This document shows, one piece after another, positions 7,919-55,207 of a stretch of 64,000 bases of DNA; the stretch's first letter is position 1, and the number at the start of each line of letters is the position of its first letter. The notes under the pieces are model-generated. The model was not told the origin of the DNA, made no database searches, and was given only the letters and a program-made list of their open reading frames with translations. Source of the stretch: Tubulanus polymorphus (lineage: Eukaryota > Nemertea > Palaeonemertea > Tubulaniformes > Tubulanidae); the NCBI RefSeq assembly GCF_964204645.1, contig NC_134035.1:1316001-1380000 (forward strand). Reading direction: 5' to 3'. Position numbers and translations under genes: made by a program.

Positions 7919-8148
7919 ACACGAAATTCGTAACATTTTTGGTCGTAAGATTTGCATGAAATACTAAATCTTAAATAAATACTAAGACTATTTATAATTC
8001 AGAAAACAATACAATTAATTTATCTACAGTTCAATTTCTTTTCTCTTTGAGAGAAACGTTGCTAAAAGTGAACGAAACAAACTTTTCTGTCTGATAAGCA
8101 AAATTATTATATATCAAATTAACACGGTGAATAAACTCAGATAGCCAA

Positions 8149-9890
<1,742 letters not shown>

Positions 9891-11304
9891 GACGACAAGA
9901 AGAAGACCGATGAATGGCTATGTGAAGTATTCTCTATGAAGCACCCCCGACCCATTAGGGCCAGACGATAAAAGCATTCATTTTAACTACCGATAAATAT
10001 TGCTGCAGTTACCATTAAGATAAATAACTATAATCAGCAATAAGATAAAACAGATAATTTATGTGCAACAATTTGAGAAAGATTGATCAACAACGCGCTA
10101 ACAAGTACTGTGGTGGAATTGAAATACGACTGAATTTTATTGCATACAAATATGACAGTTTTCACAATGAATTTTCGGGTATTTTGAATGCCGTGCAGGC
10201 GATCCATATTGATGCATATTGATGTAAGGGTCTGCACGAAAAATTTCCTTCGAATCTAGAGGCTTTTTTAACCAAACAATCTTCATTTGACGACCTATTA
10301 AACGATCCTGATGTTCCGTCAGGTTCCAGTGAGTTTCACTTAAATTTCCAACTATTCCCTGTGCCCCTACTATTCCTATGTCCTAACTGTTTCCAGTGTC
10401 CTAACTATTTATATTTTCTTAACTATTCATAGTGCTTCAAATATATTCATAGTGATCCAACTATTCAAGTGCTCTATATTCAAAGTGTCCTTCACCGGTA
10501 TCTATTCGTTCCGCAGTGGAAATTTTGTCATTTCAAATAAATTCAGGCTATAACTAAAATGAAAACACCGATTCTTTTTTAACATCAGTGAACTATCTAT
10601 CTATCTATCATAGTCCATATTGTTCAATCTAATCTAATGTAATCTAATTTGCAGCGTAGTGTCACTGATGTGGCCGGCGTCAAACACGCAGCACACGGGG
10701 TTTCAATGGCGCTCAATATGAAGCCAAACAAATTGAACTAACGACTGGTGAACCATATCAATGGTTGACTCATTCATTCGTTGATTTCATAGTCGAAAGA
10801 GCTGACTGGTCATTGTCAGTATATATTACAAAGTGTTTATGGTAAACTACGAGAATATCTGGCCGGAAAGCTGTGACGCGTTCTCGGTTATTTGTAGTTG
10901 CTGTTTTTTAACTCTCCCTTTTAAACATCTTATTGAAAATACTGTTTATCGTGTTTGCTATTTTTCTGACGATGAGATTAAGTTAGAATATCAAAACGTT
11001 AGAACAATATTAAATGTACGTAATCATGAATTATCTATTACGATCAATTCATTGTAGGTTCATTTATCGACGAATTTAAAGTGGGTTCGTTTGTCGACTG
11101 GAAAGCTCTGTAGGCCCTAAACTCTGAAAAGAGTGATTACTAGAAATGGTGTCTTCTCGATACTTTCCTGGCAATCGCGGTCTTGGAGAGGTAATTAACG
11201 GTTATAACGGTTAAAAAAGAAAAAGAAAAACAACCCTATGCCCAACGACGATATGACAACGATTAATTATTTTATTCAAAGTCGATGAAAGAATATTCGT
11301 TTAT
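9891..11304. other. Intergenic between protease and GPCR
   Basis: No supportable gene. At about 9497-9555 there is a partial copy of MITE-C (CTTAGTTCTATAGCCAATTC type), and at about 9665-9710 a fragment related to the foldback at 42765-42900. A degenerate repeat of the type CCTAACTATT / GTGATCCAACTATTC covers about 10345-10470. A short TCTA microsatellite lies near 10600. Confidence 0.6.
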
Positions 11305-12288: not shown

Positions 12289-13387
12289 ATCGGAGCCGCC
12301 CTAAAAACAACAAAAGTAAAGTCACGCATGAATACGTACAATATTGTGTTGGGGAAACAATCTATATATGTAGAATATTCTACGATAAAAGAATTAGTTC
12401 TTGAAATATTCTGATTAAAGTGATATACAGAATATCGTGAATGAAAAATCAAAGGTATTCATCATTATATAGGTCTACATTACAGCATTGGAATGAATAT
12501 GGTGAGAAGAATTAAAAAAACTCGTTGGAAATACGTTGGAATATTAAACAAAAACCAATAAACTGCCCGCAAAAAGTAGTAAAATTCTCCAAACTATTCT
12601 ACGCATCTTTTAGCAACGATCAAAACAACAAATAACTGCGCAAAGGCTTACCTTATTTCAGTAACGTACAAAGTAACGGTGATATTTCAAAACGCCTCGA
12701 AATCCTGATCATCGTTTAACACGGAGGCCACCGTGGAGCAACTGCCGCTGAGGACAACAGACTCATCGAAAACTACCTTCCAATGTATAATCATATATCT
12801 CAATATGATAATCACGTCTGATACGCGGCAGTAAGGCCAGAGGGAAGTTATAGATTTTACAAGCTAACCACCGCTTTGCTGCCGAGAATATGTTAGAATA
12901 TCAGCCTCTGGCAAAGTGAACCGATGGGATTTTCTATATTCACGGATATCACGCGGTGTTAAACGGTTAATTTCGAGCACAAACTTGGACGGATTTTCGG
13001 TGTATAATTATCAATATCGCGCGTACGGATCTCAAAGATCAAAGCTTCAGAATTTCAGACTCGAGCAAAACCGAATGATACTTAATTGCAAGGTATGGTG
13101 TTCGTAGAACCAACTCCACCATGCCTCCAGCTTGTCACTTCTCGACAAACTCTAGCTAAATTTCAACGTCGAGTCACAAACTTTTAGGCTATACCTCTCT
13201 AAGGTATCGAGTTCACGGAGAGTTCGCAAACACTGCAAATAAATCTACAGAGTTGGTTTTTTCATATTTAAAACTCGTTGAAAACAAGTGAAACGCCCGG
13301 TAGCATTCATAAACAGAATCACTAAATAAATCAAGTAACGCATTTTCTATACCGTAGATTTATTTCACTCGGTAATTTAGTAACAAT
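12289..13387. other. Intergenic between GPCR and protease unit A
   Basis: No supportable coding exon. The right end (about 13228-13387) is the shared 3'-flank block found after each protease unit, with a minus-strand AATAAA at 13364-13359, 24 bases past the unit A stop. Equivalent blocks are at about 14857-15017, 18893-19057 and 24246-24408. Confidence 0.65.
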
Positions 13388-14325
13388 CTAATTTGAAGAC
13401 ATCGTCGACTTGATCCAGTTAACGTAGTGCGAAACGCGCGTGAAGACGGCCGGTCTGGAACCCGAATCTCTAGGACCGGCAAACGACGCTATACCGACCT
13501 GTACCCATTGACTACCGCGTCGACACGCTAGAGGTCCTCCGCTGTCACCCTGAAAACAAGTGGCATCAGACCACAATTAGGTTAGTAGCTCGAAGATGCG
13601 TAGGGCCGGACCCCAAAAATAGTACCTAGAGTGAAGAAGAGGTTGCCATAATTTCTGCAAATGGGATAGGTAACGAATTTCGGTTATATGTATGAAATCC
13701 ATTGATCCTGAGAGACAGATTGATGATGAAATAAGGGATTCCCTGGACTTTTTTTGCTGTGAGTAAGGGTACCAAACACGGTGGGGGATTCCCTTAGATA
13801 TTTGGCTCGGATGTACTGGCATACCTGTACTGGGATACCCCTACTTTCTAAAGGTTTGATTATTTCAAAAGTTAGGTTGGGTATGTGGGGCGAAACGTCT
13901 TGTTTTTGATAAATTTTTGCTAAGTAAAGTCACAGTGGCCATCTTGGATGACATCATGACCTAGTTTGGTAATGATGATAGATCATTCGATTTCACATTT
14001 TCGAGTGAAAAGTGAAAGCATGGACTATCATAGGAGTTGATAGCCAAAATGTACATTTGAGAATCCATGATCCATACCATCGCTTATACCCTATAGGGTA
14101 CAGCGTTAGCAGGCCTTCGTTCAATGCGGGCTAAAATGATAAATTAAATCTAACGCGTAGCCGTGTTACTGGAGCCGCGGGTAATAGTGTATAAAGTTGC
14201 CGCAGATAAATTTCCTTGAATTTGATTACTAGATACTACTATATAAAACTTATATACGAGGCTTTATACTTACGAGCAGCGAGAATGTAGCAAAATGCAA
14301 TTATACACGTTAACGTGACGCGCAT
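13388..14325 (-). pseudogene. Serine protease array unit A, only first and last exons remain
   Basis: The signal-peptide exon is 14325-14274 ([17 protein letters not shown], phase 1). The terminal exon is 13549-13388, encoding 53 residues from GDSGGPLACRRG to STMSSN. Both closely match units B-D. None of the five middle exons (activation site, His, Asp) is found in the 724 bases between. Joining exon 1 (phase 1) to the last exon (phase 0) would break the frame. The terminal exon has an intact acceptor, GDSGGP and poly(A) signal, so it could still serve as an alternative last exon for transcripts from unit B upstream; otherwise this is a relic. Confidence 0.75.
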
Positions 14326-15017
14326 TGTACTCAAATACATCCACAAAACAGTGTGAAAAAAATTAAAAATCGCAATATCTATAGTGATATTTAGATATCT
14401 ATTAGTTGGAATATATAAATCATAAAAAATGATGATATTTCTTTGATAGCGCGCGTGGGAACAATACTTCATGCGTTTATTTATTTATTTTTTTCATCTG
14501 CAGATACAAATTTCGTGATGATACTAATATAATCTAATCATATACAACAATCATGAGCAACATAGACGTAAGAATTAACGCTAGAAAAATTCGGGAATAT
14601 TTCATTGCTTTTTTTACGAAACGACAGAGTATAAGGGTTTGAATGTCAATGAAGTCAAAATAAAAACTCAGAAAAATCATTCTTTGAAAAAAAAGCGAAC
14701 TGTAGGCCACAAAGTGTTTCTATAAAATGTATAAAATACGTCGATAGGTGCATAGTTTACTATCGATACCAGACTCAATGATTATGTGGTTAAAAGGATG
14801 AAACCAATCGCGTGATAAAACATTGAATTGATTTAGATATCGTGGAGATTCCGCATACACTGCAAACACATCTACAGAGTTGGTTTTTCATGTTTGAAAC
14901 TCATTGAAAACAAGTAAATCGCCCGGTTACATTCATAAACAGAATCACTAAATAAATCAAGTAACACATTTTCTATACCGTAGATTTATTTTACTCGGTA
15001 ATTTCTCTAGTAACAAT
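14326..15017. other. Duplicated intergenic block
   Basis: Contains sequence shared with the equivalent places after units C and D, for instance GAACTGTAGGCCACAAAGTG at about 14698, 18738 and 24083. This shows that the duplication units included flanking DNA. No separate gene is seen. Confidence 0.7.
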
Positions 15018-17536
15018 CTAATTCGAAGATATCGTCGAGTTGATCCAGTCGACGTAGTTTGAAACACGCGTGAAGACGGCCGATTGCGCACCCGGGACCC
15101 CAGGCGACAGCGCAATACCAACCTGCACCCATTCATGACCAGTATGACACACTAGGGGTCCACCACTGTCAGCCTGAAATGCATTATAGCGTTGTTGGTC
15201 CCAGGTATTAATTATCATCATACGATTATCATTAATTGCAAAGTTAAATCGTCGATAGAGAGTTGAGGGAGTTAGATAATCATAGAAGCGTAAACACGAT
15301 GAACAAAAACCCAAAAAGCCGCTACAACGAGCACCAGAAGGTTGAAAAGAAAGAGTAAAACAAGAGGAGACGAAAAGACGAAAAGAAAATGAGGCTCGAT
15401 TCAGGCAATATACAAACCTCACATATGCCTACGCCTATATCAAACTCATAACCAGCGCACAGGTTTATTGCAGTGTCCACTCCACGCTGACTAAAACAAT
15501 CGCGACCAGTTGTGATCGGCAGGCGAATCTCCCTCGCCTTGGAAGTTACAGATTTACCTGTACACACGAGAAACAATATGTTTTACCAGAAATGAAGAAT
15601 TATTATTCCCCCCGTTAGCGCCATCCTGGTAATAAGAATTGAGGAAGTGTTCCGGAAGGGTCCCGGGGACATCATTTACGATGATAGAATAAATAGAATA
15701 AGAGATATTTTTCTTTTTATTTCGAAATTTTCCGTTGAGATCCAAGGCCATCCCCAGGACATCATTTACAAAAAATAAAACTTCGATTTGATTTTTGTCC
15801 AGTTATTATCTCAACATAACTTCAATTTTTTATTAAAGGTAAATGATTTTATGTCGAGAACGTAAATGATTTTATATCGAGATAACAACTCAACAAAGAA
15901 TCGGCAAAACATTTTATTAGTCGTAAATGATATTTGTTGAAACATATCTCGAATGAAAGTTGAATTTTTATTTCTCGTTAATGACGTCCCAATTTACCTA
16001 TAGATCCGGGTTAACATTTCAAATACCCAACTAAAACCCCGAAATAGTATGTTAAATCTCACTGTATTTCATTGATTTCTATCCGTCCTTACGGTAGGTA
16101 TTTACTAGTGAGATGAACGGTTCCAAACATACCGAACCGTCACAACGTTTTTAAAGTTGCATACATTTTATCAAAATCTGTGGAATACTCACCGTCGGCC
16201 GTGCAGCCTCGTCCTTTCATTACACAGGACTGTCCAGGCTCTGGAAATGATGGTGACGTGCCTGGTAACTTGATACTAGCTTTAAAGAAGAATCTTTTTT
16301 CGGCTGGTACCGGTTTCTTCAACTTCACCAGAGCTATGTCGTTCTCCCATTGTCCTGCAATAAGAAAAACGTTATGTATACTATACGTACACGCCATATA
16401 TTTTAAAATGGTGAACTTTGCGGGCGCTCTTTTGAGGACACATACCTCTCCTAATGAAATAGCGAGGATGTAAGATAATCTTTTCGACGTCCATATCCCA
16501 TTCGACCCTGTTGTCCTTCTTGAGAGCTTTACCGAGCCAACCTTTGATTGTACCGATAACGCCAGACTATCATACAAAATATTTAACCATCCGTCACATT
16601 CGGACTAAAGTTAGAGTTAATTTAAAAAGCAGTGATTATTTTTATTTCTTCCTTACGCTCAATTTCGTTGAGGCTGTCCAGCCTTTAGGATCATCTAAAT
16701 CGTACTTGTTGCTGAAAAATTGCGATGGAATTATTTTCAACAGATTTGAGAGCGCCACTGAAATTTTCTCAACGCGGGCAGATGGTAGTTAATTCATTTG
16801 AATCTTACTGGACGAAGCAATGAGCCGCGGTTAAAATCCATCGGTCATTGATGAGCGATCCGCCGCAAGTCCAGGTCTTCTTCAACAGAGGAACGCCAAC
16901 TACTGATGCGGTCGTAAATTTACCCCGTAATGAAACGACCCACGAATCCATATCCTCGCTAGCGATTTCTTTACCGCCGATAATTCGCCAGTCGCCATCG
17001 TCTGCACCAGCGACCGCTTTAAAAATACGAGGAAATCAGCAATTGAGTTATAAAAGCCGAGATATGACACAGGTGTCGGGTTATGGACCAATGACTTCAA
17101 TCTAGAATATGATAACTCATTTATTCGTCAATTCGTCAATTAACCTCACATGATTTAAACCCACTTTGTACAAATCTAAAAGCGAAATCTATTATTCCAA
17201 AAAAATAAAAAATCGAAAATTCGAAACGTCGACTTACTAAGTTAACCACCTTGTTAGAATTAGAATTGAGGATAGAGATTTTAATTCTTTCTTTACGTAG
17301 GTCTATTTAACAAATATCTGAATTAAATCTAGCACGGAACTGTGGCACTGGACCCTGGAGTAGTCTACAAAATGGCCTCAAATAAATTGTGCTTGACTTA
17401 TCCTATCACAGCGATTCAGGATAAAGGCCGAAGCCTTCGAATTTGATTACTAGATATTACTATAAAACGAGGCTTAATACTTACGGGCAGCGAGAATGCA
17501 GCAGAATGCAATTATACACGTTAAAATGGCGCGCAT
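15018..17536 (-). CDS. Serine protease array unit B, oxyanion Gly replaced by Ala
   Basis: Seven exons: 17536-17485, 17016-16809, 16711-16657, 16566-16446, 16354-16193, 15557-15418, 15173-15018; phases all agree; 297 aa. It has a signal peptide ([17 protein letters not shown]), activation site WR|IIGG, His in TAAHC and Asp in NDIALVKL. The catalytic Ser is in ADSGGP, so Gly193, which helps form the oxyanion hole, is Ala. The usual GWG is GRG. Cys191 is present (GICE) but no Cys220 is seen, while an extra Cys follows GRG. The donor of exon 6 is GTTTGT, shared with C and D. It could be a weak protease or a non-catalytic homologue. The AATAAA lies just past the stop as in its sisters. Confidence 0.82.
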
Positions 17537-19057
17537 TGTACTCAAATACACCCAATAAACAGAGTGAAAAAGTGACAATTAATCGCAATATCTGGTGATA
17601 TTTATAAGTGTCAATGAATTAATGTTAACAAATGATAACAATTTTTTGACAACGTGTGGGAAAATATTGTTGTATGCATGTATTTTTTCTCATCTGCACA
17701 CACAAATGACGCCGGATTCGTGATGATAAAATCCACAGAATCTAATCACGTACAAAATTTGACCCACATATTTTAGCGTGTATCGTTAATTCTAATTTCT
17801 AATCAATCAATATTTCACGTATTTTTTCGAAACGGAAGCAAAATGAAATGGTGGCTGATTTGGACCATACTGAAAAAAAATCCGGTACGGCTAGAGGTAC
17901 AATAAAAATGTTAGCATTAGCCTGTGTTTTTGTTGTTTTCTCCCGTTAGAAAACTGATGGGACAATGTTTAAATTTTATATCATGCCGTATAGAATTTTT
18001 TTTTAGTATGGTCTGAATCAGCCACCATAGCATAAGGCTTTGAGGAAAGTAAATAAGACAGCGAATGACTGTAGTGAACTGATATAAATTTCAGTATAGT
18101 TAACGAATAAAAACCCGCAGAAGCTTTGTAGAAAAAGTTTATTTTCTTACAGTTTCGGGGTTAATTCTTAACCTCATCTTCAGAGGAACAAAACATATTA
18201 GAAACTTTAAGAAAATAAACTTTTCTACAAATCTACTGTGGGTTTTTATTTGAAAACAGCGAATATTCATTCTTTGAGAATAGTTACTAGTTAAAGCCGA
18301 TGTGAATCATGTAGGCCGTCAGCTAACAAAGTTCATGTATGTTTTCAAAGGTATCTCATACCAGAGGTCGGTCCCGCTAGTGGCCTCAGACACGGATAAT
18401 TAATCTGAGAAATGCTTTTTATTTCCTCTCGTCCCCGCCTTCACCTACAGATCCACCTGCCATGTTTTGATTTCGATATACGCAACATCAGCGAGTTGAA
18501 TTTAGCTCGTGTTGAACTAAGGACCGCGCTGATTCAATTTCTAGGGTACCCGGCATGATACCAGGGCGTTTGTTCACGATGGAATTGGCAGAGTCAAAAA
18601 TGACTAGGCTGGGAAAGTGGCAGAACAAAAAGTTACGCAATCATCTTAATTGTAAATTGATGGAAAATGCACATTTACATTTGGAAGTAGAATAGCAGAA
18701 CCAGAATTGATGCAGATGTATGTCCCGACCATCTTACGAACTGTAGGCCACAAAGTGTTTCTATGAAATGTATAAAATACGTCGATAGGTGCATAGTTTA
18801 TTATCGATGCCAGACTCAATGATTATGTGGTTAAATGGATGAAACCAATCGCGTGATAAAACATTGAACTGTGATTAGATCGTGGATTTTCTCATACACT
18901 GCAAACACATCTACAGAGTTGGTTTTTCATATTTAAAACTCGTTGAAAACAAGTGAAACGCCCGGTTACATTCATAAACAGAATCACTAAATAAATCAAG
19001 TAACACATTTTCTATACCGTAGATTTATTTCACTCGGTAATTTCTCTAGTAAACATT
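17537..19057. other. Intergenic between units B and C with an inverted-repeat element
   Basis: An element at 18107-18250 has ~45-base inverted ends (ATAAAAACCCGCAGAAG... and ...CTACTGTGGGTTTTTAT), typical of a MITE. The rest is a duplicated flank shared with 22980-24408, e.g. the GAGGTC(G/C)GTCCCGCTAGTGG block at about 18363 and 23590, also seen at 27675. No gene is supportable. Confidence 0.75.
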
Positions 19058-22000
19058 TTAATTCGAAGACATCGTCGACTTGATCCAGTCGACGTAGTTT
19101 GAAACACGCGTGAAGAGGCCCGGTTTCAGGCCCGGGTCGCCAGGCGAGAGCGCAATACCAACCTGCACCCACTCATTACCACGCTGACACGCTAGAGGTT
19201 CACCGCTGTCAACCTGAAATGCATTATAGCGTAGTAAGTCCCTGATATAAATCATCATTATACGATTATTATTAATTTCAAAATTAAATCTTCGATATAG
19301 AGTTGAGGTAGTTCGATAATCATAAAAGTGTAAACACGATGAATCTTATTTTCAGATGAGTAAATAAGTTTATTGATAACGAACGTTTTCGGGAATATTT
19401 CCCCTCATCGGGTATAAAACAAGTGACTGCAAATGGATAACATAGAGGTATACATACAAATCTCTGGTAATGACAAACTATTGAAATCGACTAATTAAAC
19501 ACTTGAAATTAACTGGTTGAATAGATTTCAACACTACTATGGACTAATTGAATATCAACAGTGTTTAATTAGCCAAAGCTATTAGTTTCGTCAGAAATGA
19601 AAAGCCAAAAGGCCGCTACAACGAGCACCAGAAGCAAGGTCCGATCTAAGCACTTGTCCGATTCACCCAGTCCTGGCAGTGGTTGTCTCCACCAGTGATC
19701 TCCGTCGTTCTACGATCCTAGTGTTACCAACTGTGGTACATCAGGGTTTTTGGTGAATTGTCCGATTACTCGGGACAAGTATATTATCATAAGGGCAAGT
19801 AGATTATCATTATCACTTATCCAACGGGCTAGTGCAATTTTATGTCACAAAGCTTTTCCCCACTTGATACAACAGACGATATAGTGCCACCAATCGGACT
19901 GCTTGTGTAGGGCAAGTAGCTTTTGGAATGGCAAGCGAAATTTCAGATATGCTTGCCCCCCCCCCCCCCCCGGGCAAGTGGGTTTCATTCCTTAGATCGG
20001 ACCCTGGGTTGAAAAGAAAGAGTAAAACAAAAGAGAAGACGAAAAGACGAAGAACAAGAAAATGAGGCTACGTAGAGCAAACAATCGATTGAGGCAATAT
20101 ACAAACCTCACATATTCCTTGCTCTATATCCACAAAGTTACCAGCGCACAGAATTATAAAAGTATCTACGGAATTCTTGCTGTAACAATCGCGACCAGTT
20201 GTGATCGGCAGACGAAGCTCCTTCGCCTTGGAAGTTACAGGTTTTTCTGTACACACGAGAAACAAAAACCAAGCGTCATTTTGTTTTACCAGAAATGAAG
20301 AATTATTAGTCCCCCCGTTAGCGCCATCCTGGTAATAAGAATTCAGGAGTGTTGAAGAAGGATCCCGGGGACATCATTTACAAGAAATAAAATTGCGATG
20401 TATCTCAATAACAATAATTAATTTACGATTGATAAAAATTTTTGTCGATTTCATATCGCGAAATAGAATCAGAAATTTTTTTCTTATTTCAAAATTTTCC
20501 CATCCCCGGGACATCGTTTATAAAAGATAAAACTTCGATTTTGTGTCCAGTTATTATGTTGAGTTATTATCTCAACATAAATTCAATTTTTCATCAATCG
20601 TAAATGATTTTATGTCGAGATAACAACTCGACAAAGAATCGGCAAAACTTTTTAATAGTCGTAAATGATATTTTGTTGGGACATCTCAACTCTTTATTTC
20701 TCGTAAATGACGTCCCAATTCACCTATAGATCCACCCCTGGGGTTAACATTTGAAATACCCAACTAAAACCCCGAAATAGTATGTTAAATCTCACTGTAT
20801 TTCATTGATTTCTATTCGTCCTTACGGTAGGTATTTTGCTAGTGAGATGAACGGTTCCAAACATACCGAACCGTCACAACGTTTTTAAAGTTCGTGTGCA
20901 AACTATGCATACATTTTATCAAAATCTGTGGAATACTCACCGTCGGCCGTGCAGCCTCGTCCTTTCATTACACAGGACTGTCCGGGCTCTGGAAATGATC
21001 GTGACGTGTCTGGTAATGTGATACTAGCAATATTGGGTAATTCTGGTCCGAATGGTACCGGTTTCTTCAACTTCACCAGAGCTAAGTCGTGCTCCCATTT
21101 TCCTGCAATTAGAAAAACGTTATGTATACTATACGTACACGCCATATATTTCAAAATGGCGAACTTCGCGAGCGCTCTTTTGAGGACACATACCTCTCCT
21201 AATGACATAGTAGGGATGTAAGATAATCTTTTCGACGTCCATATCCCAGTTGTCATTCTTGAGCCAACCTTTGATTGTACCAACAACGCCGGACTAAATA
21301 TATAATATTTAACCATCCGTCATATTCGAGTTGCATTGACGAACTAGAGTTCATTTCAAAATCAGTAACGAGACGAGTCGTACTGTATGATAGGTTAACT
21401 ATTTATTTGACGCACGAGCTTTCGCTACAAGCTTCATTAGGTGAATGAGTACGGTCAATAGAAAAAAAACATTGACTATACTCATTCACCTCAAGAAGCT
21501 CTATACATTAGTAGCGAAAGCTCGTGCGTCTAATAAACTAGTTAAACTATAAAGTACTATTCTGTCTGGTTGTATTCATTGCTATCTATCTAATACTACT
21601 AGTAGCGAAACTAGTTTGAAACTAGTAGACAACTACTAGCAGAGAAAGCTCGTACTTCAAATAAACTAGTCGAACCTATAAAGTACTATTCGTCTATTTC
21701 TATCTATCTAATACGCTTTCAGTCTGGGATGTTTAATGAAGTAATATTCGTCTATTTCTATCTATCTAATACGCTTTCAGTCTGGGATGTTTAATGAAGA
21801 ACTATTCGTCTATTTCTATCTATCTAATACGCTTTCAGCCTGGGATGTTTAATGAAGAACTATTCGTCTATTTCTATCTTGTTAACTTGTTTATAGACGC
21901 ACGAGCTTTCGCTACTAGTGTATAGTAGCTTCATCGGGTGAATGAGAGATGAAGCTACTATTCATTAGTAGCGAAAGCTCGTGCGTCAAATAAATAGTTA

Positions 22001-22979
22001 ACCTATATAGTACTACTCGTCTCGTTACTTATTTTAAACCAGGTTAACGCGGCTACTCGACGAATAATTTCAAAAGCAATGATTATTTTCATTTCTTCCT
22101 TACGCTCGATTCCGTGGAGGCCGGTCTCACTGTCCAGCCTGTAGGATCATCTAAATCGTATTTGTAGCTGAAAAATTGCAATGGAATAATAATTTTCAAC
22201 AGATTTGAGAGCGCCGCCGAAAAATTCTCAACGCGGGCAGATGGAAGTTAATTCATTTGAATCTTACTGGATGAAGCAATGAGCCGCGGTTAAAATCCAT
22301 CGGTCATTGATGAGCGATCCGCCGCAAGTCCAGGTCTTCTTAAACAGAGGAACGCCGATCATTGACGTGGTCGTAAATTTACCCCGTAATGAAACGACCC
22401 ACGGAGAAATTCCCTCGCTAGCGACGGCTTTAAAAATACGAGGAAATCAGCAATTGAGTTATAAAAGCCGAGATATGACACATTGTCGGGTTATGGATCA
22501 GTGATTTCAATCTAGAAAATGATAACTCGATTATTCGTCAATTAAGTTGACCTCACATGATTTAAACCCACTTTGTACAAATCTAAAAGCAAAACTATTA
22601 TTCCAAAATAAAAAATATAAAAAACGAAAATTAAGTTAACCTTGTTAGAATTAGAACTGGGGACGACTTACTAAGTTAACCTTGTTAGAATTAGAACTGG
22701 GGATTGATATTTTAATTCTTTCGTTATGTAGGTCATTTTTAAAATGAACTATTTAACAAATATCTGCATTAAATCTAGCACGGAACTGTGGTACTGGACC
22801 CTGGAGTAGTAGTCTACAAAATGGCCTCAAATAAATTGTGCTTGACTTATCCTATCACAGCAATGGCCGAAGGATAATGGCCGAAGCCTTCGGATTTGAT
22901 TACTATAAAACGAGGCTTTATACTTACGAGCAGCGAGAATGCAGCAGAATGCAATTATACACGTTAAAATGGCGCGCAT
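19058..22979 (-). CDS. Serine protease homologue, array unit C, activation site deleted
   Basis: Seven exons: 22979-22928, 22427-22268, 22167-22104, 21293-21194, 21102-20941, 20246-20107, 19213-19058; every phase agrees and the frame is open; 277 aa. His (TAAHC), Asp (HDLALVKL) and Ser are present. Exon 2 is exactly 51 nt shorter than in unit D: it reads [10 protein letters not shown] where D has the same start, then the WR|IIGG activation segment. The GDSGGP motif is VDSGEP, so oxyanion Gly193 is Val and a following Gly is Glu. GWG is GRG. A trypsin-fold zymogen without the activation N terminus should not mature, so this is probably a non-catalytic homologue or an early pseudogene. Introns 3 and 6 are swollen by mobile elements. 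Confidence 0.8.
19635..20008. mobile_element. MITE-D copy with C homopolymer
   Basis: Inverted ends GGTCCGATCTAAG (19638-) and CTTAGATCGGACCCTGG (ending 20008). A run of C at about 19957-19970 is flanked by CTTGCC and GGGCAAGTGG. The same element, opposite orientation, is at 42210-42465. It is located in intron 6 of unit C; unit B lacks it there. Confidence 0.8.
21366..22027. mobile_element. Composite 662-bp foldback element with internal tandem repeats
   Basis: The outer ends are inverted copies of ~50 bp (TAACGAGACGAGT...GTTAACTATTTATTTGACGCACGAG and its complement). Inside are two hairpin modules with stems of the GACGCACGAGCTTTCGCTA type (21409-21530 and 21896-21987). Between them is a 58-bp tandem repeat, about 3.5 copies from 21681 to 21885, with steps at 21681, 21739, 21797 and 21855. 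It is in intron 3 of protease unit C (810 bp) while the same intron in unit B is 90 bp, so it inserted after duplication. A degenerate relative lies at about 29255-29360. No open frame. Confidence 0.85.
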
Positions 22980-24408
22980 TGTACTCAAATACACCCAATA
23001 AACAGAGTGAAAAAAGTGAAAATTAATCGCAATATCTGGTGATATTTATAAGTGCGAATGAATTAATGTTAACAAATGATAACAATTTTTTGACAACGTG
23101 TGGGAAAATATTGTTGTATGCATGTATTTTTTCTCATCTGCACACACAAATGACGCCGGATTCCTGATGATAAAACGCGCAGAATCTAATCATGTACAAT
23201 CATGGGTGATTAGAAATTAGAATTAACGATACACGCTAAAATATGTGGGTCAAATATTCCATGTCATTTTTCGAAACGAAAGCAAAATGAAATGGTGGCC
23301 GAATCGGGACATGAAAAAAAATGTTTATATTGGCCCGCGTTTGTTGTTGTTTGCTACGTCGAGAAAACAAAAAATGGTCCAATGTTAAAGTTCTATATAT
23401 TGTCTATACGTTTTAGTATGGTCCGAATTAGCCATCACAGAATAAGGCTTTTATGGTTTGAAAGTAAATAAAACAGCGAATATTCATTCTTTGAAAATAT
23501 GTTACTAGTTAAAGCCGATGTGAATCATGGAGGCCGATTCCGATTCAGCTCACAAAGTTCATGTATTTTTTCAAAAGTATCTCATACTAGAGGTCCGTCC
23601 CGCTAGTGGCCTCAGACACAGATGTCTATTCAGAGAAATGCTTTTTTATTATCTCTCGACCACCAATTTCTAATTCACCAATAGAACCGCCCGCGATGTT
23701 TTGATTTCGATATACGCAACATCAGTTACTAACAACTTGATATCGGACAAATCTTGATATTTGACTCTAGATCGCGGTAAATAACGTAACGCTTACAAGG
23801 ATGCGAGTTAATGGTGCTCGTCCAGGCACTAGCGCGTGTGGGTATCAGGGTTATCACTGGACGTGTTGAACTGGGGACCGTGCTGATTCAATTTCGAGGG
23901 TACCCGACATGTTGCCAGGACGTTTGTCCACGATGAAATTGGGTCAAAAATGACTAGGCTGGGAAAGAAGCAGAACAAAAAGTTACACAATCATCTTAGT
24001 TGTAAATTGATGGAAAATGCACATTTTGGAAGTAGAATAGCAGAACCAGAATTGATGCAGATGTATGTCCCGACCATCTTACGAACTGTAGGCCACAAAG
24101 TGTTTCTATGAAATGTGTAAAATACGTCGATAGGTGCATACGTAGTTTATTTTCGATACCACGCCCAATGATTATGTGGTTTAAAGGATGAAACCAATCG
24201 CGTGATAAAACAATATGAACTGTGATTAGATATCGTGGAGATTCCGCATACACTCAATAACAAATCGACAGAGTTGGTTTTTTCATGTTTGAAACTCATT
24301 GAAAACAAGTGAAACGCCCGGTTAGATTCATAAACAGAATCACTGAATAAATCAAGTAACACATTTTAAATACCGTAGATTTATTTCACTCGATAATTTA
24401 GTAACAAT
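22980..24408. other. Intergenic between units C and D
   Basis: A duplicated flank homologous to 17537-19057 but lacking the inverted-repeat element found there. No gene is supportable. Confidence 0.7.
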
Positions 24409-27174
24409 CTAATTCGAAGACATCGTCGACTTGATCCAGTTAACGTAGTGCGAAACGCGTGTGAAGGCGCCCGGTCGCGAACCAGGGTCGTTAGCTATAG
24501 TGAACGACGCAATACCGACCTGTACCCATTGACTACCGCGCAGACACGCTAGGGGTCCACCGCTGTCACCCTGAAATCCATTTCAAGCGAAGATATATTC
24601 TTCCGAGTTGCGAAAATCAATAGAATCTACAATTTATATCGGTTGACAGTCCAGGTGCAGACTTCGATAGAAGCACGAAGACATTTTTTAAGATTTTTGA
24701 ACGTCCCCAGGACGATTCCGTACTGGTAGAAACTGATTGATAATCTAGTAAAGATCTAGAGGTGAGATGTGAAAAGCCGCGACAACGAACACAAGAAGGT
24801 TGAAAGGAATAAGTTTAACAAGAAAATAGTAGAAGAAAAAGAAAGGGAAGCTACGAGGAACAAACAATCGATTGAGGTCGCATACAAACCGGACATACTC
24901 CCACATTCATGTTGTATTGACCGGCGCATAGTCGTTTATCAGTATCCACGTGCCACATTCTGTAACACGCGCTATCGGATAGGATCGGCAGACGAACCTC
25001 CATCGCCTTGGAAGTCACGGATTTACCTACACATATATAACATAAATCGAGCGTCGTTATGTTTCACCAGAAATTAAGAATCGTCGTGTTAATAGTTCTC
25101 GTAGCCCTGTTAGTGCCATCTCATACCAAGGGTGGGCACGTCAGCTGAACGCGTAAATGATGCCCGAAATGCTTTTTATTTTCTCTCTCAATCCCACCTT
25201 CTAATTTACCTACAGATCCACCCGAGGTTAACATTCTTTAATGGTCAAATAAAACCCCGAAAATGGCGTTTTAATAGTGGCGTCACGGTTCTCAGTGGTT
25301 ACTATCTATTTGCTATAGTGAGACGAACGGTTCCAGACATACCAAACCATGACAACGCGTGTTTAAAGTTCGCGTGCAAACTTAGTTAGTTACCTAATCG
25401 TTGGTGGTAAGCTTTTTATAATCGGATGGGCTTATACCAACGTGGTTTGTGAAAATATCCGATCGTGAAAAGAAAAGAAAAAACACAGACAGGTTACTGA
25501 CTAGTGCAAACTATCCCTACATTTTCCCAACGTCGAATTCAACGTGTAAATATGATGGGTGGAATACTCACCGGCCGCTGTGCAGCCCCATCCAGTCATC
25601 AAACAGGACTGTCCTGGCGCTGGAAATGATGGTGACGAGTCTGGTAATGTGATACGAGCAATATTGGCGAATTCTGGTCCGACTGGCACCGATCTCTTTA
25701 ACTTCATCAGAGCTATGTCGTTCTCCCAACTTCCTGCAATGAAGAAAACGCTATTGGACACGCCATACATTTCAAAATGGCGAATTTCGCGAGCGCTCTT
25801 TTGCGGACATACTTCTTCTATTGTACTGAGGATGTATGATAATCTTTTCGACGTCCATGTCCCAGTTGACCCACTTGTCCTTCTTGAAAACTTTACCGAG
25901 CCAACCTTTGATTGTACCGATAACGCCAGCCTAAATACAAAAGATTAAACCATCCGTCACATTCGGGTTGTATTGACAAACTGCAGTTCATTTTAATATT
26001 CAATCATCTTTATTTCTTTTATTTCATTCATTCCTTACGCTTAGCTTCGTGGAGGCCAGCCTCACTGTCCAGCCTTTAGGATTCTTTATATCGTATTTAT
26101 CGCTGAAAAAAAAAAATAAAACAATTTCGTCCGAAAGATTTGAGAGCGGAGCCGATATTCTTTACACCGAGTGCAGATGGAGTTTATAGTTACTTACTTG
26201 TCGAAACAATGAGCCGCGGTTAAAACCCATCGGTCAATGATGACCGACGCGCCGCAAGTCCAGATTCTCTGCACCAGAGGAATTCCGATCACTGACGTGG
26301 TCGTAAATTTACCCCGTATTGACACGAGCCACGGATAAATTCCCTCGCTAGCGATTTCATTGCCGCCGATAATTCGCCAGTCGCCATCATCAACCGCACT
26401 AGCGACGGCTTTGAAAATACGAGGAAAAAATCAGATGCGTCATAGAAGCCGAGATAAATCGGCCATTTAAAAACCGACAAGCGTGAATTCAAAATACACA
26501 GGTGTCGGTTTATGAACCTTTAGAAAATAACTGGATTATTCATCAGGGTCAAAGGTAACCACTGGACCCAGTTCAAACAGTTCTGGGTTGGGATTTCGAA
26601 TCTTAAGTCAAGTAGGTCACCACTAGCTCCTGTCGCAGTTTACCAGTGTCCTTTCGAAAATGCAATGGCGCAGTAATTTTACAGGGCACTTTTTCAACCC
26701 GTAACTAAGGCAGTGCAGTCTCTGCGGCAGTTTCGAATGAATGATCTAACTCTCAGGACCCAGTTCGACAGTACTGAGTTAAGATTTGACCCTGAGTTAA
26801 CTCATTGAAAATGAACTAACTTAAACTCAGAGTCTCTAACTCACAACTGTGGAACTGGGTCCTGAGAGTTAGGTCTAACGCAGAATTCTAGCTCTAAGGG
26901 GCCGGTTCTATAGTCATGGCTTAGACTTAAGACCAGTCTAAGACCATCTTAATTCTACAGCTAATCTAACAGTGTAAGACCAGTCTTAAGATTTAAGACC
27001 ACTTTTTGACTCAAGTCTTGACTATGGAACAGGCCCTGGACTCTGGTTGTCTGTAAAATGGCCCATACACAGTTTAATGGCGAAGACTCATATTGCCTCC
27101 TTATTAAAGCACAGATACTTACGAGCGGCAAGAATGCAGCAAAATGCAAATAAACCCGTAAAAATGACGCACAT
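24409..27174 (-). CDS. Serine protease array unit D, catalytic residues intact
   Basis: Seven exons: 27174-27123, 26408-26198, 26102-26039, 25930-25813, 25733-25572, 25026-24890, 24570-24409; phases agree throughout; 301 aa. Signal peptide [17 protein letters not shown]; activation at R29|IIGGNEIAS; His84 in TAAHC; Asp154 in NDIALMKL; GWGC; Ser251 in GDSGGPLAC. Position 189 appears to be Gly, so trypsin-like Arg/Lys cleavage is not expected. Cys191 has no visible Cys220 partner; an extra Cys right after GWG could pair with it instead. It lies at the upstream end of the array and is the best candidate for the active member. It is likely secreted; the substrate is unknown. Confidence 0.85.
26744..27039. 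mobile_element. MITE-B and MITE-C, adjacent copies
   Basis: MITE-B (about 26744-26874) has ends CAGGACCCAGTTC and GAACTGGGTCCTG, extended by flanking inverted CTAACTCT/AGAGTTAG. MITE-C (26898-27039) starts GGGGCCGGTTCTATAGTCAT and contains several GACTTAAGACCAGTCTAAGA-type blocks. The same two families lie side by side, in the other order, at 62056-62309. Both are here in intron 1 of protease unit D. Confidence 0.8.
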
Positions 27175-53528: not shown

Positions 53529-55207
53529 TCACTTCGCCGCCGAATCCTTGTCATCGTCGTCGCTATCGTCGTCTTCCTCCTGCATTAGTTTTTTCGCTAG
53601 TTGTATCGCGTGGAATTCGTTGTAGTGATCTTTTCGTTTCGCTTCGAACGACTTTCGATGAACTGAGAAAAAAAATCGGAGGAAAGTTCGTTATTGAAGA
53701 TGAATTGTGAAAATTAACACCCGGTACTTGTCAACGTAGAACGGGTCGACACAGTACTGGTCAACGTAGAACAGGTTAACACAGACAGTACTGGTCAACA
53801 CAGTACTGATCAACACAGAACAGGTCAACAGAGTACTGATCAAAATGGTACTGGTCAACACAGTACTGGTCAACACAGAACAAGTCAACAGAGTACTGAT
53901 CAAAATGGTACTGGTCAACACAGTACTGGTCAACACAGAACAGGTCAACAGAGTACTGGTCAAAATGGTACTGGTCAACAGAGTACTGGTCAACAGAGTG
54001 CTGATCTTACCTCGCTTTTCTTCTGTTTCCTCCTCGCTTTCATCATCTTCATCATCGTCATCATCATCAAAATTATGACGGAAAACTTTTGCATCAGTTC
54101 CTTCTTGTAACCTAGAAATTGAACGCCAGAAGACATTAAACATTTTATTGGGGTCATTCCTGAACGTAAAATGTCCAAGCTGAGGTTGGTTCCAGGTGAA
54201 CCAGGGCTTGTTCTAGGATGAGGAGGATGGCTCCATCAGTCTATATGGGGTGGTTCCAGGGATAAGAGGTTGTTCTAGGATGAGAGGATGGTTCCAGACT
54301 AAGAAGGGTGGTTCCAGGCTGCAGACATGTAGCCTATAGGCTTAATACTGGGACTTACTTCTCAGCGACTGAGGCTGGATTGAGAGGCTCTTTTTTCTCG
54401 ATACTGAGCCGGCGTTTAGGCTTATCCGCGTGAACACACTCGTCGCTGCTATCTGCGTCTTTATAATAACTGTACGGCGTTTTAGGTTCCTCGATTTTCA
54501 TGTGTCCGTAATCTTTATCGGCGGGATGATGAGTCGCCAGGATGTTCATCTCGTCCCATTTCATTTTCATCTCTTTATCACCGTGGTGACGATGACTACA
54601 ACAATCGAATAGTGTTATCATCAATTATTGGGCTTTAAAACCCTTTCAGTGCGGTATATTAATCGATGATGGATGTTGCTAGTACACCGCATTACGGTGT
54701 ATTGATGTTATTAGTATTTAGTTTTTATCTCTTTTGGAAGATGGCAGCACCTGTCAAAGACAGTAAACTATAACTAATAATACACCGCACCGCAGTGTAG
54801 ACGTGCTATGTGCGAGTTATTCAACACACTGGGTGAGACACTGATATATATTTTTAAACGGACGACACCAGCTATATTTACGACGTTTCATTCTGATTGG
54901 CTGATTAACGTTGCGCGACTTAGAAAATTTGAAGAAAGTGTGGAGAACGGAGTTAGAGAAAATAGCAGATAGAACTAGACTCGAACCCTAAACTTTAAAC
55001 AAGACTAAAAGGTGTTAGAAGACAGGAGCGAACCGAGAGAATCACCAGATCACATCATCATAGTCATCACCTTCTCTCTTACCCGGCAGCGGTTGTTGTA
55101 TGACATGGTTGAGCTGGTGGCTCTGGAGTATCAAAACTGGAAGAATTCTTCAATATCCCTTTGAGGGATTTGTTTTTTGCCGTTGCAGTCGTCGAAGTCG
55201 AAGCCAT
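53529..55207 (-). CDS. PPP1R2: Protein phosphatase 1 regulatory inhibitor 2
   Basis: Four exons: 55207-55083, 54595-54359, 54111-54011, 53662-53529; phases 2, 2 and 1; 198 aa. Inhibitor-2 landmarks are in order: KGILKN (16-21, the N-terminal PP1 contact), [20 protein letters not shown] and MKIEEP in exon 2, PKTPYS with the threonine phosphorylated by GSK3 in vertebrates, an acidic [14 protein letters not shown] stretch, and KRKDHYNE followed by a helix (IQLAKKL), the segment that covers the PP1 active site. A further acidic C-terminal tail ends the protein. It binds and restrains the PP1 catalytic subunit in cytosol and nucleus. Its 5' end faces SMPD2 across 519 bases. Confidence 0.93.
53728..54000. 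repeat. Minisatellite in the last PPP1R2 intron
   Basis: A short unit of the type TACTGGTCAACACAG / TACTGATCAAAATGG is repeated about 17 times. A higher-order period of ~60 bp is visible at about 53815, 53875 and 53935. It fills most of the intron 53663-54010. It creates long open frames on both strands that are not genes. Confidence 0.85.
54639..54838. mobile_element. Related piggyBac-type MITE relic
   Basis: Begins ACCCTTTCAGTGCGG and contains TACACCGCATTACGGTGTAT, ATGGCAGCACCTGTC and TACACCGCACCGCAGTGTAG, then a degenerate ACACACTGGGTG end. It is shared with 46972-47215 and 50590-50991. It lies in the first PPP1R2 intron. No clear TTAA pair is left. Confidence 0.65.

Follow-up and report, generated by a model that had tools for sequence, protein, structure and literature searches.

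Gene C, one of several S1 (trypsin-like) genes arrayed in tandem in Tubulanus polymorphus, is probably a retained protein-coding gene for a rapidly evolving, secreted S1 pseudoprotease that likely acts by binding. Its structure, the deletion that removed its activation site, the polarity of that change, and the retention of its reading frame are read from the sequence, and from these we infer that the protein is secreted and noncatalytic and that it functions by binding. Dead relatives of S1 proteases are a known kind of protein, and C adds one more. Such pseudoproteases are common; most are old, with the order of their losses blurred. At this locus the neighboring genes show the steps, from the intact D to B, in which the active site is damaged and the activation switch is kept, to C, in which the switch is also lost, and the mechanism of the deletion can still be seen. 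More tentatively, and with somewhat less than even confidence, we propose that an enzyme like D, a damaged form that can still be activated like B, and the switchless C mark an ordered and datable route, with C a young pseudoprotease caught as it loses its switch, its active site being damaged already, and exons outpacing introns. An annotation based on the catalytic triad would label C an active protease.

Organization of the tandem array

The window, meaning the whole stretch of DNA that was analyzed, comprises 64,000 nucleotides of contig NC_134035.1 (C11:1316001-1380000), and positions within the array are counted from its first nucleotide. S1 genes lie in tandem on the minus strand of the window, as do the exons and the deletion junction of C described below. 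The array consists of a divergent S1 gene (~8130-9920), a remnant copy designated R (13217..14603), and the genes B (15018..17536), C (19058..22979), and D (24409..27174). When B, C, and D were rebuilt one exon at a time, each proved to be complete, with seven exons, GT-AG boundaries at every intron, coding sequences divisible by 3 (894, 834, and 906 nt, respectively), and open frames of 297, 277, and 301 codons without a stop. In C, the frame, the start and stop codons, all seven exons, and all 12 splice ends are intact and the six introns are kept, bearing out a preliminary description of this DNA that had reported seven open and correctly spliced exons.

All three genes match the Pfam Trypsin model, C most weakly. 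Its match (PF00089, E = 4.3e-32) covers residues 26-270 and profile positions 13-220, extending across the domain and placing C in the S1A group. D has canonical R↓IIGG, GWG, and GDSGGP motifs and Ser214-Phe215, the arrow marking the activation cleavage. B keeps R↓IIGG, has ADSGGP and Arg141, and is without residues 214-215. The start codon and signal peptide of C are encoded by exon 1 (22928..22979), which is 98% identical to exon 1 of B; exon 3 occupies 22104..22167. In the remnant R, the only matches are to exon 7, which is open and includes GDSGGP and GIASF, and to the exon 1/upstream region; exons 2 to 6 are gone.

Loss of the activation site in C

In S1 enzymes, cleavage frees Ile16, and the amino group of this residue pairs with Asp194, ordering the oxyanion hole (PMC13194640). 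Exon 2 of C (22268..22427), which keeps Cys42, TAAHC (His57), and Cys58, is 160 nt long, compared with 211 nt in D and 208 nt in B. Our exon models agree with the preliminary description that 17 codons including the WR↓IIGG of D are missing from this exon. The loss relative to D is exactly 51 nt, and it encodes the end of the signal-cleavage region, a short acidic propeptide, and WR↓IIGG. As a result, C lacks the S1A activation site, a basic residue followed by I/V-[IV]-G-G, and with both Ile16 and the propeptide deleted the Ile16-Asp194 switch cannot form, a property it shares with PRSS23-like pseudoproteases. Relocation of the motif to another part of C was considered and rejected, as no copy was found in the gene. 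Within the window, the motif CGACTGGCGAATTATCGGCGG occurs in B and D only.

An activation site of the form R↓I-[IV]-x-G is present in B, in D, and in two distant paralogues, one on contig C6 (R↓IIGG) and one on C7 (R↓IVKG). The site was therefore lost on the C branch. The first of these paralogues lies at C6:3347645-3350100; contig C7 carries two near-identical copies about 18 kb apart (C7:19514632-19516899 and C7:19533873-19534830), with RIVKG in the first. We also scanned the genome with the Trypsin model and checked five other S1 genes in which the match of the first exon begins late in the profile. A nearby activation motif was found in all five, reading [RK]↓IVGG or K↓IFGG.

The ends of the missing piece point to how it was lost. 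In D, the heptanucleotide TCGCTAG stands at both ends, and in C a single TCGCTAG marks the junction (22418..22424). The preliminary description had recognized the repeat at both ends in D but gave it as CGCTAG, one base short of its full 7 nt. Along the whole coding sequence of D, breakpoints for a 51-nt deletion flanked by at least 7 nt of identity number 8 of 845 and fall in one place only, 8 being the number of equivalent positions that a single 7-nt repeat provides. Because no other position in the D coding sequence offers equal flanking identity, this arrangement supports slippage or microhomology-mediated repair between the TCGCTAG copies as the probable origin of the deletion, along the lines of the slippage or recombination between short repeats suggested earlier.

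A junction within a short repeat might also be expected if the 51-nt gap were a misassembly or an allelic polymorphism in the sequenced animal. We consider this improbable. With its 268 Mb in 77 contigs the assembly is contiguous, long reads are not misled by a repeat as short as 7 nt, and exon 2 of C occurs once in the assembly, in a single version, with no second allele, haplotig, or copy of C found when the assembly was searched. Exon 4 (21194..21293) carries two more deletions private to C, of 12 and 9 nt, which the preliminary description did not report.

Order of losses at the active site

Residue numbering was taken from motifs and from an alignment with enteropeptidase. C keeps the full S1A triad, with His57 in TAAHC, Asp102 in the EHDLAL of exon 5 (20941..21102), and Ser195 in VDSGE, and it also keeps Asp194 and the pairs Cys42/58, 136/201, and 168/182, consistent with a folded core. 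The intact triad is a point against reading C as a pseudoprotease. The surroundings of the triad are altered, as the preliminary description had in part noted when it pointed to VDSGEP where GDSGGP is expected. This motif is indeed present in exon 7 (19058..19213, ending in the stop codon), giving Val in place of Gly193 and Glu in place of Gly197, and the codons for residues 214-215 are deleted from the same exon, as they are in B. C thus has neither the Gly193 nor the Ser214-aromatic215 pair of S1A enzymes, and with Val193 and the loss of 214-215, catalysis by C appears very unlikely.

B and C both have Arg in place of Trp141 (GRG in exon 5 of C), lack the 214-215 codons, and are without Gly193. 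Residue 193 is Ala in B and Val in C, which could reflect one change followed by another, or an independent change in each gene. The Ser214-Phe215 codons missing from B and C are present in D, in the C6 and C7 paralogues, and in remnant R, which is informative at positions 193 and 214-215 only. As B keeps IIGG yet shares the catalytic losses of C, damage to the active site in the B/C ancestor appears to have preceded loss of the switch on the C branch. The preliminary description had treated loss of the activation site as the key event; the loss itself stands, but its primacy does not, since B together with four other copies points to earlier catalytic damage.

Retention of H57, D102, S195, and D194 would also suit a single-chain protease that is active without proteolytic activation, its Asp194 being satisfied by Lys156 or by the N-terminus of a partner. 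Position 156 is Lys in C, Arg in B, and Met in D (register from a gapless alignment), and Lys156 gives single-chain activity in the tissue-plasminogen-activator lineage. However, this residue is not diagnostic, being present in normally activated trypsins too, and Val193, Glu197, Arg141, and the 214-215 loss harm the oxyanion hole and the substrate strand. The switch, moreover, normally moves the equilibrium 10^6- to 10^7-fold toward the active state (PMC13194640). On these grounds we regard a single-chain enzyme as highly improbable.

Frame retention and divergence

A codon model with a free omega for each branch was fitted to B, C, and D, with and without exon 6. Estimates of omega were 0.73 for B, 1.58 for C, and 0.66 for D with all exons, and 1.02, 1.25, and 0.63, respectively, without exon 6. 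Neither B nor C differed from 1, and only the D branch leaned below 1 (P = 0.046 with all exons and 0.051 without exon 6). The codon model thus gives no evidence of purifying selection on the amino acids of C. An omega indistinguishable from 1 does not prove that C is neutral, because its reading frame is kept.

Indels reveal this retention most clearly. Between B and C, the introns differ by 38 indels, 27 of which are not multiples of 3, and the coding sequences differ by 6, all of them multiples of 3. At the intron indel rate, 14 frameshifts would be expected on the B and C branches together and about 7 on the C branch by itself, where there are none (P = 0.0008, or 0.006 under a low rate bound). 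The three deletions private to C (51, 12, and 9 nt) are all in frame. For stops, the expectation on the C branch is 1.9, and their absence is a weak result when taken alone (P of none, 0.14). In sum, about 9 disabling changes would be predicted along the entire C branch, and there are none.

One alternative is that C is a very young pseudogene, whose function ended, through the 51-nt deletion or because expression ceased, so recently that the frame is still unbroken. The omega of about 1 on the C branch, the three private deletions, and the changes at conserved positions (V193 and E197) would all fit such a history, and remnant R shows that copies in this array decay. On the other side, no frameshift or stop interrupts C, its splice sites are sound, and none of its introns has been lost, and we estimate that an intact C is about 10 times less likely under this history than under retention if the onset of decay is assumed to be uniform over the branch. 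Frame retention argues against a long neutral decay of C and makes an early end of its function on the C branch unlikely; as an average over that whole branch, it is compatible with a recent onset of decay, and it is possible that function ended recently. We therefore view a young pseudogene as unlikely, while giving it appreciable weight. The preliminary description had offered either a nonproteolytic role or a very young pseudogene for C and had looked to dN/dS for a test. The pair was a reasonable one, but dN/dS does not choose between its members; it is frame retention that favors the first.

B and C diverge more in exons (12.7%) than in introns (7.2%; P = 1.6e-5). Nonsynonymous divergence exceeds intron divergence both with exon 6 (P = 0.00015) and without it (P = 0.009), and synonymous divergence likewise lies above that of introns. 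Hypermutable CpG sites were rejected as the source of the raised exon divergence, non-CpG sites alone giving 11.6% versus 6.3%. Divergence is highest of all in exon 6, which encodes Cys168, Cys182, and Cys191: between B (15418-15557) and C (20107-20246) it differs by 21-24%, compared with 7-9% in the flanking introns. Silent sites of this exon are strongly diverged as well (0.445), so replacement of a segment appears as likely as positive selection. The fast B-C exons in general could be explained by positive selection, by replacement of exon segments with those of other copies, or by a combination of the two. The 400 bases 3' of C (18660-19057) match those of D (24010-24408) at 91.5% and those of B at 84%, the reverse of the gene body, in which C is nearer to B. 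Units of the array have therefore probably been mixed by conversion or unequal exchange.

A possible route to C and its nearest relatives

If C is a retained pseudoprotease, the B/C ancestor would first have lost Trp141, the Ser214-aromatic215 pair, and the oxyanion-hole residue Gly193. A deletion between the two TCGCTAG copies would then have taken out the propeptide and Ile16 on the C branch. With the signal peptide off, no new N-terminus would arise to pair with Asp194, and the domain would be expected to stay zymogen-like; the mature chain is predicted to start near SEGISPW or EGISPW and to be too short for Asp194. The A-x-A signal-cleavage site of B and D went with the deletion, leaving a cleavage site in C that is noncanonical by eye. 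By analogy with other S1 homologues, C might serve as a decoy, an inhibitor trap, or a cofactor within a rapidly diversifying tandem family.

In a phmmer search, the solved protein nearest to C was human alpha-tryptase, which is not an orthologue. Like C, alpha-tryptase is impaired and belongs to a young tandem cluster of S1 genes. Its pocket is defective near residue 216 and the processing of its propeptide is impaired, and unlike C it keeps its activation motif.

By analogy, the nearest precedent for C is PRSS23, in which the triad is kept, the Ile16-Asp194 switch is absent, and no activity is detectable (PMC13194640). As predicted for C, the vertebrate S1 pseudoproteases PRSS23 and PRSS35 have a secreted S1 domain without this switch (PMC13194640), and His57, Asp102, and Ser195 are common to PRSS23 and C. 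However, PRSS23 is an old conserved gene with a prodomain that lost Ile16 and Asp194 by substitution, whereas C appears young and fast evolving, lost its propeptide and Ile16 in one deletion, and still has Asp194.

Invertebrate serine protease homologues, such as the clip-domain cSPH35/cSPH242, CLIPA14, and masquerade-like proteins, also have noncatalytic S1 domains, as we propose for C, and are kept for cofactor or regulatory roles. The classical serine protease homologue is defined by the absence of one or more triad residues (PMC1761132); the homologues named here lack such a residue, often Ser, and carry clip domains. In contrast, C has no extra domain and retains all three triad residues. 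Exons that diverge more than introns are known from venom gene families (ASSET; PMC2711939), and the S1 paralogues B and C resemble snake venom serine proteases in this respect. In B and C, unlike in the venom proteases, silent sites are raised too; no venom context is known, and we do not infer venom.

Insertions and repeats

Large insertions in C lie in introns 3 and 6, and the exons are free of them, a distribution that agrees with retention of the gene. Intron 3 contains a 684-bp inverted-repeat mobile element (21355..22038) that is absent from B and D; the inverted repeats measure 39 nt (100%) and 34 nt (88%), and the element is a dispersed repeat with 90 matches in the genome. The element holds a 58-bp tandem repeat, and its last 158 bp recur on many contigs. 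The insertion in intron 6 measures about 640 bp. Intron 1 of C contains an exact 32-nt direct repeat with a spacing of 40 nt (22632-22703), and elsewhere in the window, at 53691-54212, there is a long repetitive open frame built from a short tandem repeat.
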